Assembly: GCA_900318865.1 (NCBI GenBank)
Contig: ONMF01000002.1
Coordinates: 124,001 to 188,000, forward strand
Reading direction: 5' to 3'
DNA length: 64,000 nt
From: an uncultured Prevotellaceae bacterium
GTDB taxonomy: Bacteria; Bacteroidota; Bacteroidia; Bacteroidales; Muribaculaceae
The notes beneath the pieces are model-generated. The model was given only the letters and a program-made list of their open reading frames with translations. It made no database searches and was not told the DNA's origin. The stretch's first letter is position 1; the number at the start of each line of letters is the position of its first letter. The translations under genes and the position numbers were made by a program. Below are positions 67-54,960 of this stretch, piece by piece.

Positions 67-81
67 TTTTTACGGAACGTG

Positions 82-1047
82 TCAGGCATCTTTCACTTCC
101 CAGCCCAGTGCCGAGGCGCCCAGGATGGCGGCATCGGCCTCCTTCATCTCGCTGAAGAGGATCTTGGCCTTGCCTTTGAAGATGGGCAGCACATTCTTGT
201 CGAATGCTTCCCTGACGGGCTTCATGATGAGGTCGCCACTCTTGGCCAGGCCACCGAAGATGATGAATGCCTCGGGGCTGGAGAAGGTGGTGAAGTCGGC
301 CAACGCCTCGCCCAGGATGGTGCCGGTGTAGTCAAAGATTTCCTTGGCCAGCTTGTCGCCTGCCATGGCGGCATCAAACACGTCTTTCGACGTGATGCTG
401 TCTATATCCAGCTCACGCAGTTTCGACTCGTCGGAGCGAATTTCCAGGAACTCGCGTGCTGTGCGTGCCACGCCGGTAGCCGAGCAATAAGCCTCCAGGC
501 AGCCCGTGCGTCCGCAGCCGCACATGCGTCCGTTGTTGCGTTTCATAATCACATGGCCCAGCTCGCCGGCAAATCCGTCGTGACCATAGACCATCTGGCC
601 GTTGATCACGATGCCGCTGCCCACACCGGTGCCCAGTGTGATCATGATGAAGTCCTTCATGCCGCGTGCCGCGCCGTAGGTCATCTCACCGATAGCTGCG
701 GCGTTGGCATCGTTGGTGATGATGCAGGGAATGCCGAATTTCTTGCTGATGAGGTCGGCCAGGGGTATGGGCGTGGGCCACGGCAGGTTCACGCCGTCCT
801 CGATGATGCCGGTGTAGTAGTTGGCGTTAGGGGCGCCGATTCCGATGCCGTTGATTTTATCCTCAGCGTCGGCCGCCACGATGATGCGGTTGATTTCGGT
901 ATACAATTCATCGATATAGTCGTCGATGTTGCTGTGCTTCGCTGTCTTAATCGAGTCGCTGGCAATCACATTGCCGCGGGCGTCCACAATACCGAAGGCG
1001 GTGTTCGTGCCGCCCATGTCGATACCAATTACATAAGGTTTTGCCAT
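82..1047 (-). CDS. ROK family sugar kinase (glucokinase-like)
   Basis: This is a cytoplasmic ATP-dependent sugar kinase of the ROK family, probably phosphorylating glucose or an amino sugar. The N-terminal phosphate-binding loop GIDMGGTN is at residues 8-15. The catalytic segment TNDANAA carries Asp113. The motif GELGH at 161-165 supplies the His, and CGCGRTGC at 176-183 supplies the Cys ligands of the structural zinc site. Its length of 321 residues is normal for a ROK kinase, and the absence of an N-terminal helix-turn-helix separates it from ROK repressors. A consensus promoter lies about 50 nt before the ATG and a hairpin follows the stop, so it is probably monocistronic. The exact sugar cannot be read from the sequence. 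Confidence 0.92.
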   Translation of the reverse strand: MAKPYVIGIDMGGTNTAFGIVDARGNVIASDSIKTAKHSNIDDYIDELYTEINRIIVAADAEDKINGIGIGAPNANYYTGIIEDGVNLPWPTPIPLADLISKKFGIPCIITNDANAAAIGEMTYGAARGMKDFIMITLGTGVGSGIVINGQMVYGHDGFAGELGHVIMKRNNGRMCGCGRTGCLEAYCSATGVARTAREFLEIRSDESKLRELDIDSITSKDVFDAAMAGDKLAKEIFDYTGTILGEALADFTTFSSPEAFIIFGGLAKSGDLIMKPVREAFDKNVLPIFKGKAKILFSEMKEADAAILGASALGWEVKDA

Positions 1048-26286: not shown

Positions 26287-26361
26287 CGCGGAGTGGAGCA
26301 GTGGCAGCTCGTTGGGCTCATAACCCAAAGGTCGTCAGTTCGAGTCTGGCCTCCGCCACCA
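26287..26361 (+). tRNA. Initiator tRNA-fMet (CAU)
   Basis: This 75-nt cloverleaf has anticodon CAT in the loop CTCATAA. The anticodon stem carries three consecutive G-C pairs (GGG/CCC), the hallmark of initiator tRNA. The first acceptor position is unpaired, another initiator feature: C1 faces C72. The T arm (GTTCGAG core) pairs well, the D loop is short, and the 3' CCA is encoded at 26359-26361. Confidence 0.93.
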
Positions 26362-50859: not shown

Positions 50860-51528
50860 ATGACACTTCTCGAAGCCATAGCGCAGCGCCACAGCGTGCG
50901 CCGCTACACCGACCGACCTCTGACGGCCAACCAAATCGACCATCTGAACGCACTCATCGACACCTGCAACCAGGAGGGACATCTGCACCTGCAACTCGTC
51001 ACCGACGAGCCGCGGGCTTTCAGCAGCTGGATGGTGCACTATGGAGCGTTCAGCGGGGTGCGCAACTATATTGCGCTCGTAGGCCCCAAGGCCGATGACC
51101 TCGACGAGCGCATCGGATACTATGGCGAGCGGCTGGTGCTCGAGGCGCAGCGCATGGGCCTGCACACATGCTGGGTGGCACTCACCTACCGCAAGGTGGC
51201 CAACGCCTTCACCGTCAATCCCGGAGAGCGCTTGCGCAGCGTCATCACCATCGGGCAGGGTGTGGATGGGGGTCATGGACACAAAGTAAAAACCATCGAC
51301 AAGGTAGCACGCTGGCAGGGCACCATGCCCCAATGGTTCCGCCAGGGAGTGGAGGCCGCCTTGCTGGCCCCCACGGCCATCAACCAGCAGAAGTTCCGGT
51401 TCACGCTGCACGATGGCGATGTGGTCGAGGCCACCCACGGCCTGGGGCCTTACGCCGCCATCGACCTGGGCATCGTCAAATTACATTTTGAACTCGGCGC
51501 AGCCCCCCACCCCTTCACCTGGCAATAA
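50860..51528 (+). CDS. Nitroreductase family flavoprotein
   Basis: This 222-residue FMN-dependent oxidoreductase fits the putative TM-type nitroreductase group that contains an internal second half. The N-terminal MTLLEAIAQRHSVRRYTDRP is the FMN phosphate-binding arginine region. YYGERLVLEAQRMGLHTCWVALTY matches the conserved dimer and FMN helix, and the C-terminal half contains LLAPTAINQQKFRFTL. A physiological substrate is not evident. It is the last normal-GC gene before the AT-rich island. A promoter is not clear in the AT-rich 90 nt upstream. Confidence 0.88.
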   Translation: MTLLEAIAQRHSVRRYTDRPLTANQIDHLNALIDTCNQEGHLHLQLVTDEPRAFSSWMVHYGAFSGVRNYIALVGPKADDLDERIGYYGERLVLEAQRMGLHTCWVALTYRKVANAFTVNPGERLRSVITIGQGVDGGHGHKVKTIDKVARWQGTMPQWFRQGVEAALLAPTAINQQKFRFTLHDGDVVEATHGLGPYAAIDLGIVKLHFELGAAPHPFTWQ

Positions 51529-51944
51529 ACCGCCAGCCACATCCCATATTGCAAGAGGTGCAGAGTCGCAGGAAAACACCAACCATCTCATCGCCTCACA
51601 TGTTGTTTTGAACCACCAAGCTAACAAGTAAAAAAATTTCATCAGCTCATTGATTTCTCGTAAATTTATTATAATTTTGTAAATTGTAGGGATTATTCCT
51701 ACATTAACTTTTTAGAAAATGACTTAACCAGACATAGAGTTAATCAAAGGAAGTGTTTACTTCTACTTGATGTGTCCCTGAAATCGCCAAATTCAACGAC
51801 ACTCATCAACAGTAGTAGTGAATGCTTACGCCATAATGGTGTGAGCTTCATTTGTTGTATGAGTGTAGGCGTTTGGCGATGCCTTGGGACAGCAATAATG
51901 AAGTCTTGCACCTTCTTTTATTGCTTTGTCGCAAAAAAGAAATT
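51529..51944. other. AT-rich intergenic leader of the island, 416 nt
   Basis: No credible gene is present; a 64-codon frame at 51772 has no coding character. Base composition changes from GC-rich to AT-rich at about 51.6 kb, which may mark the left edge of the acquired segment. TAATTTTG at 51672-51679 is a possible -7 box for the island, leaving a leader of about 260 nt with no identifiable structure. I see no tRNA, integrase or clear terminal repeats. Confidence 0.5.
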
Positions 51945-52343
51945 ATGGAAAAAGAACAATTACTGAAAAACCATTTTTTAAGTCTTTACTGCATGGTTTT
52001 AGCTGACGGAGTAGTTTCACCCAAAGAAATGGAATCACTCTACAACATTGGGCGCACGAACTACAATCTGAGCGAGAAAGAAATCAATGAAGCCATAGTT
52101 GCTTCGGGCACGACTTATGCGATTCCAACTTCCCCCGAAGAATGTGTCAAGATTCTTTATGAAATGGCTATTATTGCATGGGCCGACAATAACATCGATG
52201 ACAATGAAATCAGATTATTACACACTTATGCGCTTCGTTTTGGCGTAAACGAGTGTGACGTGCCCGACTTTGTAAATTTTCTTCTCGACAAGGCACAAAA
52301 TCAATCTAGCGAGGAAGATGTCATTAAAGAATTAACAGCTTAA
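51945..52343 (+). CDS. TerB-like protein
   Basis: This 132-residue all-helical protein resembles the tellurite-resistance TerB fold. Two internally repeated acidic helices show the pattern: CMVLADGVVSPKEMESLYNI near residues 17-36, and IIAWADNNIDDNEIRLLHTY near 84-103. These acidic turns are the metal-binding positions in known TerB domains. I chose the ATG at 51945 (MEKEQLLKNHFLSLY). An in-frame upstream ATG at 51852 adds residues without family character. The gene is AT-rich and lies 11 nt before the coiled-coil membrane gene. TerB proteins act as membrane-associated scaffold or sensor modules; the role here is unknown. Confidence 0.8.
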   Translation: MEKEQLLKNHFLSLYCMVLADGVVSPKEMESLYNIGRTNYNLSEKEINEAIVASGTTYAIPTSPEECVKILYEMAIIAWADNNIDDNEIRLLHTYALRFGVNECDVPDFVNFLLDKAQNQSSEEDVIKELTA

Positions 52344-52354
52344 CACCTACCATT

Positions 52355-53599
52355 ATGAGTTTTAGTATCAAGAATCTTTTCAAAAAAAGCAATTCGGTTG
52401 CACAACAGCAGGTTCAACCTTTGCTTGGCCAACAAGCACCAACAAATCCCAATGACCGCAGACTTGGTGAAACATACCAAAATTGGGGCATAAGAATGTG
52501 CGCCACCGTTGCTGGATCGGTTTCGGCACTTGCTCCCATGTTACAAAAGGCGTTCTTGGACGAATATAATGCTCAAGCACAAAATGCTGCATTGCAACAA
52601 CAGTTCAGGAGTAATATTCAATCACAAATACAACAAAAACAGAATGATGTGGCAAACATTAATAGCCAAGTCGAAAAAGAACAAGATACAATTCAAACTA
52701 AAAAAGATATAATCAAACAACATCAAGAACAAATAAAACAACTCAAAGAACTCAAGGAAACCAAAAACAAGGATGAGGTTGTGAAGTTTCGCATTGGTCT
52801 TCTTATCCTTTTGCCACTTACTTTCTATCTGATTCTCTTTTACAGTAGCACTTTCTATTCCGCTTTTTTAGAGAGCGGCATTGTTTCTGACGTTACAAAT
52901 GCAATGTTTAACCCCAAAGCGTTTCCTAATGCTTGGAGCAAAAGCATATTCTCATTCTTAATGATGATTTTGTTCCCTATTATATTTATGGGACTGGGAT
53001 TTAATTTGCATTATTTTGCCAAAGACAAAGGAATCTTGAAATATTTCAAGTTGATTGCCATTTTATTAGTGACATTTGCATTTGATTGTATTCTTGCATA
53101 TAAAATTGGTGAGAAAATCTATAATGGAATGGTTATGAACGGAATAATCCCTGATGGTGTTCCTTACACAATCTCAGCAGCAATGAAAGATGTGAGTTTT
53201 TGGGCTGTCATATTTTGTGGCTTCATCGCTTATATTATTTGGGGACTCGTATTCGATCAGATTATGAGCGCATATTCCAAACTCGATTTAAATAAAGTCC
53301 AAATAAGGAATTTGGAAAAAAACATTTTAGGCTTGGAAAGTGACATTGAATCACTTGGTAATAGCATAACTAACCACAACTCACAAATCGCCACACTGCA
53401 AAATGAAATAACTGAATTAGAAGCCAATCTCACTAATAGAGTAAACATCAATTATGCCGTCATTCGACGTGAAATGACCAATTTTTTCACTGGGTGGATT
53501 ACCCAAATGAATGTTTTAGGTATAAGCGCAATCGAACAAACAAACGCCAACTCTACATTTAGCAATTCAATATCAACTTTAATACCTCAACAGCAATGA
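52355..53599 (+). CDS. Four-helix membrane protein flanked by two coiled coils
   Basis: I do not recognise this 414-residue protein. The N-terminal 45 residues are polar. A small Ala-rich hydrophobic patch follows, then a Gln/Lys-rich coiled coil at about 75-140. Four transmembrane helices lie near 145-172, 198-220, 230-250 and 280-300. A second coiled coil runs at about 305-365 with heptad-like ILGLESDIESLGNSI spacing. The two coiled coils would lie on the same side if all four helices span. The gene is strongly AT-rich, 11 nt after the TerB-like gene, and overlaps the next start by 4 nt (ATGA). It may be the membrane platform of a three-protein complex. Confidence 0.75.
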   Translation: MSFSIKNLFKKSNSVAQQQVQPLLGQQAPTNPNDRRLGETYQNWGIRMCATVAGSVSALAPMLQKAFLDEYNAQAQNAALQQQFRSNIQSQIQQKQNDVANINSQVEKEQDTIQTKKDIIKQHQEQIKQLKELKETKNKDEVVKFRIGLLILLPLTFYLILFYSSTFYSAFLESGIVSDVTNAMFNPKAFPNAWSKSIFSFLMMILFPIIFMGLGFNLHYFAKDKGILKYFKLIAILLVTFAFDCILAYKIGEKIYNGMVMNGIIPDGVPYTISAAMKDVSFWAVIFCGFIAYIIWGLVFDQIMSAYSKLDLNKVQIRNLEKNILGLESDIESLGNSITNHNSQIATLQNEITELEANLTNRVNINYAVIRREMTNFFTGWITQMNVLGISAIEQTNANSTFSNSISTLIPQQQ

Positions 53600-54474
53600 A
53601 AAAGAATATCACGTTTGCATTTGCAATCACTCTTGTTTTCATATTTTTGATGAAACTCACCTGCTCCTGTAGTAGTGGGGAGAGTAATGATGCATCGAAG
53701 AAAGAAAACTCAAACGATTCAAAAAAAATCAACATTACTTTGTTAATTGATTTATCCGATAGGATTATTCGGCCCAATCCTAATCAACTGAATATCGACT
53801 TGGATATCGCCGAATTTCTTACAAAAAGTTTTACTGATTCATGCATGCATTGGGAATCAAGCATTAAGGGTAATGGACTGCAAAATGCAGAACACAGTTT
53901 TAAAATCATGTTCTACCCAGAGCCCAACGACCCATCTGTAAATTCTCTTGCAGCCAAACTTCAGATTGATGCAAGCAATATTCCACAGGGCAAAGAAAAA
54001 CTACACATCATTAAAGATGCCCCAGACACTATAAGGCATAATCTCAATCAGATTTATAATATAGCTACAAAAGCAGGAAATTTTCATGGCAGTGATATTT
54101 GGGGATTTTTTGACTCAGGAGATGTGGAGGCACAGTGCATCCGTAAAGATTATCGAAATATCCTTGTGATTCTTACTGATGGCTACTTATATGAGCGTTC
54201 CAACCTAATACACAATGGCAACAGTACAAATTACATAACAGATGCAGTTCTCAAAAATCCAAATTCAGGACTCATTGCGAATCGGAACAACCTCAATAAT
54301 CTTGAAGTATTAATTTTAGAAATCAACCCAAAAGACCCTCATCACTTGCAAAAAATGAAATCGCTCCTTACAGACTGGATAAAAAAACAAGGAGTAAAAC
54401 ATTGTGAAGTGACCAAAACGCAACTTCAAGTCAACACTCAAACCACTATCAATAATTTTTTGAACAATAAATAA
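53596..54474 (+). CDS. VWA-like lipoprotein
   Basis: This 292-residue protein has a lipoprotein signal with Cys23/Cys25 (FLMKLTCSCSSG) and a Ser/Asn/Lys linker. The fold looks like a von Willebrand A domain: first strand ITLLIDLSDR (Asp52, Ser54), a GSD segment at 165-167, and NILVILTDGYL at 188-198, typical of the strand bearing the third metal-site Asp. The second Ser of the classical DxSxS motif is replaced by Arg, so the metal site may be altered. The start overlaps the membrane gene by ATGA, implying coupling. A hairpin terminator follows. Function unknown; VWA partners are common in Ter-type systems. Confidence 0.75.
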   Translation: MKKNITFAFAITLVFIFLMKLTCSCSSGESNDASKKENSNDSKKINITLLIDLSDRIIRPNPNQLNIDLDIAEFLTKSFTDSCMHWESSIKGNGLQNAEHSFKIMFYPEPNDPSVNSLAAKLQIDASNIPQGKEKLHIIKDAPDTIRHNLNQIYNIATKAGNFHGSDIWGFFDSGDVEAQCIRKDYRNILVILTDGYLYERSNLIHNGNSTNYITDAVLKNPNSGLIANRNNLNNLEVLILEINPKDPHHLQKMKSLLTDWIKKQGVKHCEVTKTQLQVNTQTTINNFLNNK

Positions 54475-54487
54475 CAATTAAATATTA

Positions 54488-54521
54488 AAAAATGAGGGCA
54501 TAAACATGTGTCCTCATTTTT
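54488..54521 (+). terminator. Terminator at the end of the AT-rich three-gene island
   Basis: A 10-bp stem AAAAATGAGG (54488-54497) pairs with 54512-54521 across a 14-nt loop, ending in T residues, 13 nt after the VWA-like gene. Confidence 0.78.
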
Positions 54522-54585
54522 AATACGTTCGTTTTTGGCATGGATTTTGTAATAGTTCTGCTGTTCCTAATTCTGTTCTTTTTGC

Positions 54586-54960
54586 ATGATAGCACGGATA
54601 TTCGACATGACCGCACAATGGTTGTTCACAACAAGCCAAAAACTGCACCTAACCTACAATGAAATGAACATTGTGGTTTATTACATGATGGTGCCGCTCA
54701 CTTGGCTCATCATGCTCGATGCCATTATCGGCAGCTGGCCCTGGCTCACTGTTGCATGGATCGCCGCCTGCATGGTGGTCATGATTGTGCATCGCAAAAA
54801 TTTCGAGCAGTGGTGCGACTCGGTGTTTAAACGCTCAGTCGATTTCTTACTGTGGTTCCGGCGAGTGGGTTGGAATTATACCCTGGCGTCGGTTATCATT
54901 TGCGTAGCAGTTCCGCTTCTGATATATGCCATTTTGACCATTTTACTAATCATCTTATAA
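54586..54960 (+). CDS. Small integral membrane protein
   Basis: I do not recognise this 124-residue protein. Three hydrophobic helices are visible: near residues 28-47 (NIVVYYMMVPLTWLIMLDAI), 50-67 and 98-124, the last ending the protein (LLIYAILTILLIIL). An internal ATG at 54607 (MTAQWL) could be the real start. GC content is closer to the chromosome than to the preceding island. The lipoprotein gene begins 15 nt downstream, so the two are probably one transcript. No function can be suggested from sequence. Confidence 0.65.
   Translation: MIARIFDMTAQWLFTTSQKLHLTYNEMNIVVYYMMVPLTWLIMLDAIIGSWPWLTVAWIAACMVVMIVHRKNFEQWCDSVFKRSVDFLLWFRRVGWNYTLASVIICVAVPLLIYAILTILLIIL

Follow-up and report, generated by a model that had tools for sequence, protein, structure and literature searches.

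The window, that is, the whole stretch of 64,000 nucleotides analysed from an uncultured Prevotellaceae bacterium, contains three adjacent genes on the forward strand, referred to here as A, B and C. Gene A (51945..52343) encodes a TerB-family protein of 132 aa predicted to be cytoplasmic, gene B (52355..53599) a protein of 414 aa with four TM helices and a putative antiparallel coiled-coil stalk, and gene C (53596..54474) a predicted exported VWA-fold protein of 292 aa, the relatives of which usually carry a lipid anchor. A previous reading of the DNA from its sequence alone had described these genes as tightly packed and poor in GC. In agreement with this, the ORF coordinates gave a gap of 11 nt between A and B and an ATGA overlap between B and C, and the GC content of the three genes was 0.35–0.39, as compared with ~0.57 in the window.

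The genes are flanked on the left by a nitroreductase-like gene (50860..51528) and on the right by gene D (54586..54960), which encodes a small protein with three TM helices; both are on the forward strand. Between C and D, folding of positions 54482–54526 of the same strand resulted in a terminator-like hairpin (−18.7 kcal/mol, z −4.9) followed by T residues. This hairpin was not among the terminators listed by the consensus scanner, and the Rfam search gave no match.

Products of the three genes

The assignment of the A product to the TerB type was confirmed by a match to PF05099 at 30.9 bits, the cut-off being 24.4, and no other TerB was found in the host genome. The closest solved structure by profile was PDB 2h5n (PG_1108, E 2.9e-7). 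The protein contains two acidic ADG...E repeats (D21/E28 and D81/E88), and residues D21, E28, L71 and E88 were invariant in a set of 36 relatives.

The AlphaFold model of the B product (pLDDT 89.6) contained the expected four membrane helices and two coiled coils. The coiled-coil pair is made up of helices 78–132 and 312–360, with helical tips at residues 41–76 and 367–409. Alignment of this helix pair with the hairpin of the dynein stalk 5ayh (VIA; rmsd 2.0, 106 aligned residues spanning 76..363) argues that, as modelled, the two coiled coils probably pair into one antiparallel stalk. Positively charged residues beside the membrane helices, as well as the fusion variants described below, suggest that this stalk is cytoplasmic. 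Asp244, located in the middle of TM3, was identical in 111/111 aligned B domains, those of the PLD and Runella fusions included, and the same was true for G45, G289 and G380. Searches of Pfam, NCBIfam, PADLOC and PHROGs with B gave no family beyond coiled-coil noise. Matches to SMC, JetC, LmuB, AAA_13 and similar models were rejected as noise of this kind, and the Foldseek matches were discarded as long-helix pairings without significance.

The AlphaFold model of the C product (pLDDT 88) bore out the VWA fold. Its top structural matches were VWA domains (Z up to 13.2, rmsd 3.2, 175 aligned residues; VIA), namely those of TFIIH subunits, Rpn10 and integrin I domains, and no family was found for C in Pfam, NCBIfam, PADLOC or PHROGs. 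The metal motif is altered, as had been noticed from the sequence, the canonical MIDAS pattern DxSxS...T...D being absent. Judged from the order of the motifs, the corresponding residues in C would be D52-L-S54-D55-R56, G165-S-D167 at the position expected for the MIDAS threonine, and T-D195-G; among these, D52, S54, R56, D167 and D195 were invariant in 56 sequences. The description of C as a lipoprotein was sustained for the family, with a lipobox-like motif in 89/114 relatives, but not for the window copy, in which the candidate motifs KLTC and TCSC are non-canonical. The closest relative of C (locus L017) has no lipobox cysteine. From these sequence features, C is best called a putative exported protein, usually lipid-anchored.

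Conservation, insertion and neighbourhood

Using a profile built from an alignment, 363 relatives of C were found in 84,980 species genomes, whereas C alone as a single-protein query of genome contigs gave no match. The three-gene order was retained in distant genomes, as anticipated in the sequence-only reading: A-B-C was present in 75/97 inspected loci, spanning Bacteroidales, Flavobacteriaceae, Pontibacter and Pinibacter, and B-C without A in 12 more, several of the remaining loci being interrupted by contig ends. Among 395 evenly drawn Bacteroidota genomes, strong matches to B and strong matches to C were found in the same 20 genomes and were always adjacent, and these 20 genomes were also recovered with the Runella fusion protein (see below) as query. 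Mirror-tree correlations were 0.78 for B-C, 0.51 for A-B and 0.45 for A-C, the permutation maximum being 0.21, and dN/dS values of 0.01–0.11 for A, B and C indicated purifying selection on all three genes. The conserved order, the co-occurrence, the correlated distances and the low dN/dS together indicate that the trio is a functional unit, and confidence in both the unit and its layout is high. Order conservation in 75 loci and the dN/dS values place the gene set well outside what chance would give.

Relatives of the trio in viral, phage and plasmid collections amounted to one viral contig, no phage and one plasmid, and because of this near absence the idea of a phage moron was dropped. Transfer or binning errors may explain the single copies seen in MAGs that carry the labels Treponema, Elusimicrobiota and Acidobacteria. 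In a Bacteroides MAG (L036:2689-4577), C is tandemly duplicated after A-B.

The proposal that the genes had been acquired by transfer gained support from an empty site in a genome of the same genus (G028, locus L182), located with the nitroreductase-like gene as chromosomal marker; the nitroreductase-like protein of this genome is 97% identical to that of the window. In G028 the DNA runs from the stop codon of the nitroreductase-like gene through ...CACATGTTGTTTTGA to a terminator and then to gene D. This continuity delimits the extra segment of the window at ~51613..54470 on the forward strand (~2.86 kb), in accordance with the drop in GC content, and the segment consists only of a leader of ~330 bp upstream of A and the three genes. 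Since the empty site has a hairpin homologous to the one found 3′ of C, the latter is ancestral to the insertion. The terminator described at the end of the island thus exists but is chromosomal and not part of the cassette. No integrase, transposase or tRNA was found in the inserted segment, the sole tRNA of the window being at 26287. Direct repeats at the insertion ends were only short ones, as expected by chance; the sequence TTTTGA, common to the left junction and a site near the C end, may be a coincidence.

In this comparison of two genomes, A, B and C were gained or lost as one unit, a loss in G028 being possible instead of a gain. C was carried by 3/61 genomes of the genus and the nitroreductase-like marker by 49/61; this patchy distribution, along with the empty site, marks the trio as an accessory mobile trait. 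Gene D is missing in another genome of the comparison (G012), in which a gene E directly follows the nitroreductase-like gene, and the spot occupied by D may be a small insertion hot spot.

The small neighbours that recur around the trio belong to the families Excalibur, DUF4236, DUF6804, DUF3892, YidD, SNase, SH3 and HSDR_N, together with a zinc-motif lipoprotein, and several of these families occur in more than one order. About 40 Flavobacteriaceae loci (L049, L051 and L061 among them) have A-B-C in a fixed slot downstream of a two-component pair. In this slot, a TPR histidine kinase and a response regulator are followed by changing small genes (for Excalibur, DUF4236, YidD, DUF3892 and cysteine-rich proteins), by A-B-C and by the gene for a restriction-like protein of the HSDR_N type.

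The expected nearness to defence genes was not observed, PADLOC families being no commoner at the neighbours than in random control genes. They numbered 47 per 103 neighbours in the unbiased set, 108 per 125 in the mixed set and 80 per 120 control genes picked at arbitrary positions in these genomes, a coarse comparison in which families and not proteins were counted. The scan of the mixed set would have looked convincing by itself, but against the random-gene control a reading of the A-B-C loci as defence islands is unsupported, and the absence of enrichment removes its main support. Divergent copies of B-C are located in CRISPR-III and RT/helicase loci.

Fusions and replacement of TerB

On plasmid pSP2_2 of Runella sp. 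SP2, B and C form one protein of 704 aa (L113:8582-10696) with a hydrophobic segment between the B and C parts; this is a single example, from a complete plasmid record. The gene lies between a WYL gene and the genes for a CRISPR primase-polymerase, Cas2 and Cas1, and type III-B genes adjoin.

In three other genomes (G536, G654 and G741), TerB is absent and a PLDc_2 domain (E ~1e-23) is fused to the N-terminus of a divergent B. The resulting protein of ~630 aa has one HKD motif and is followed by a divergent VWA lipoprotein of the C type with the motif D-M-S-S/D-R (L160:8075-10886, L211:8087-10857 and L212:2614-5398). In G536 and G654 this pair is found where other Flavobacterium have A-B-C, in a slot recognised by the TPR histidine kinase, the response regulator, the HSDR_N protein and the zinc-motif lipoprotein. 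TerB and the PLD domain therefore appear to have equivalent functional positions at the cytoplasmic N-terminus of B.

B-C without TerB was also found beside Csx1/CARF-type genes (L158:847-17982); the cluster includes reverse-transcriptase-like and Cas2-like genes, as judged by eye. On a viral contig (L112:731-10747), the B-C pair is accompanied by a reverse transcriptase and a DEAD helicase of 1455 aa, a group of genes that is possibly a defence cluster. In an Elusimicrobiota MAG (L102:481-6602), the genes after B-C encode a Sel1/TPR protein, which matched MotA_ExbB marginally, and an OmpA-domain protein, an arrangement that recalls ZorAB-like pairs.

Relation to known systems and proposed function

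The trio had been regarded as a possible minimal relative of Ter systems. Membership of these systems is contradicted by the gene content: no match to the TerD family (PF02342) was obtained in the host genome, which is 97% complete, the control genomes being positive, and no kinase or phosphatase was matched in A–C and the two downstream genes, whereas the TerY-P triad consists of a VWA protein, a PP2C phosphatase and a Ser/Thr kinase. B had no Pfam match to TerC. The cassette also differs from Ter and TerY-P systems in that its VWA protein is predicted to be exported and has a non-canonical metal motif, and in that B matches no Ter family.

TerB (PF05099) is one subunit in the anti-phage systems Shango and Bunzi (PMC10952713, PMC10250203), which have only TerB in common with the cassette. 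Shango is composed of TerB, an ATPase and a helicase, whereas the cassette operon has no ATPase or helicase and the partners of TerB are a 4-TM stalk protein and a putative exported VWA protein; none of the Shango models was matched by A, B or C. In the MoxR-vWA ternary conflict systems, the VWA protein is a core component and the effectors are exchangeable (PMC7159879). These systems encode a MoxR AAA+ ATPase, which is absent from the three-gene operon, and in the cassette the VWA protein would be outside the cytoplasm, with the exchangeable part across the membrane from it. The PLD-domain defence systems Mokosh and Azaca resemble the TerB-less variant in having a PLD-family domain as output, but no 4-TM stalk protein with a VWA partner is described for them and the window copy has no PLD domain. 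No description of the trio was found in the open-licence PMC literature.

The reading preferred here, to which a probability of about 0.5 is given, is that of a horizontally moving cassette that builds an inward-signalling trans-envelope relay with an exchangeable cytoplasmic output, conditional protection being the likeliest role. C would be anchored on the periplasmic side, where it would bind the predicted periplasmic loops of B at residues 173–197 and 262–279 and sample the state of the envelope or a ligand. The change would be carried inward by the four-helix bundle of B, with its invariant buried Asp in TM3, and would pass through the cytoplasmic antiparallel coiled-coil stalk to an output module at the stalk tip, TerB (A) in the window and the PLD-family HKD domain in the variant. 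This cytoplasmic module would be an effector or would recruit one, and the response would be conditional protection from envelope assault, such as entry of phage or mobile DNA or attack by competitors. The scheme thus adds putative C-B and A-B contacts, a direction of signalling, a trigger and an output to the observed gene unit, folds, conservation, discrete insertion, and fusion and replacement variants. An inward direction, in which C senses, B transmits and A or the PLD domain acts, is proposed with moderate confidence because the cytoplasmic piece is the one that varies. C is more probably a sensor than the effector of the earlier view, the exchanged part being the cytoplasmic TerB or PLD domain. 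Confidence in any particular trigger is low, the candidates being the entry of phage or DNA, toxins of competitors and damage to the envelope. A defence role of A-B-C is plausible; its explicit form, put forward tentatively, is a trans-envelope immune relay in which the arginine-motif VWA protein detects attack at the envelope and B, by means of its buried Asp and of a coiled coil resembling the dynein stalk, activates an effector that is exchangeable, either TerB or a PLD nuclease.

Several observations count against the relay: the neighbours of A-B-C are not enriched in PADLOC families, the trio is nearly absent from phages, viral contigs and plasmids, the B+C fusion is a single example, and the lipid anchor is not universal. 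The conserved chromosomal place that the trio often has in Flavobacterium and the low dN/dS also count against it and fit a housekeeping stress function as well. In the main rival reading, the trio would be a general module of the response to envelope or metal stress and not a conflict system, with C or A sensing the state of metal or cell wall and the relay adjusting physiology in a manner akin to tellurite-resistance proteins. TerB and VWA are folds that often bind metal, and the fixed slot that follows a two-component pair in the 40 Flavobacteriaceae loci, like the neighbours without defence enrichment relative to the control, is in agreement with such a module. It is made less likely by the patchy occurrence in the genus (3/61), the empty site in G028, the variants with a PLD-type domain instead of TerB, and the finding of B-C at type III CRISPR loci and at loci with a reverse transcriptase and helicase.

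The Asp in the middle of TM3, retained in every aligned B domain including those of the PLD and Runella fusions, would also suit an ion-coupled force or gating device. B would then act as a channel or stator-like unit of four helices with Asp244 as the proton acceptor, and would be regulated by C and A, for example so as to depolarise the cell or to pull on the envelope. The Sel1 protein with its marginal MotA_ExbB match and the OmpA-domain protein next to B-C in L102 point in the same direction. A buried Asp can, however, be structural, the loop plan of MotA-type proteins differs from that of B, and the fold searches with B gave no significant match to MotA/ExbB or channels, although one could still exist; such a device is accordingly considered unlikely. 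Least probable is a role of the trio as an accessory membrane complex in a secretion machine. In the Bacteroidota T6SS, for instance, the membrane complex TssNQOPR includes a VWA-domain lipoprotein, TssR, and a protein with five TM helices, TssN (PMC10781749). The likeness, a VWA-bearing lipoprotein with a polytopic inner-membrane protein that has a cytoplasmic part, is superficial. Sizes, TM counts and gene set all differ: C has 292 aa against 790 for TssR, and B has four TM helices plus coiled coils. Moreover, the sheath family VipB/TssC (PF05943) gave 0 matches in the host genome.

The trio is present in hundreds of Bacteroidota genomes, and its central protein, B, lies outside the described families. 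If the relay operates as proposed, TerB would gain a defined place in a pathway, one shared with a nuclease-type domain, and the trio would represent an immune or stress system with its sensor outside the cytoplasm and its action within it. Through the PLD variant and Asp244, the invariant residue of TM3, the question of the relay is open to direct testing.
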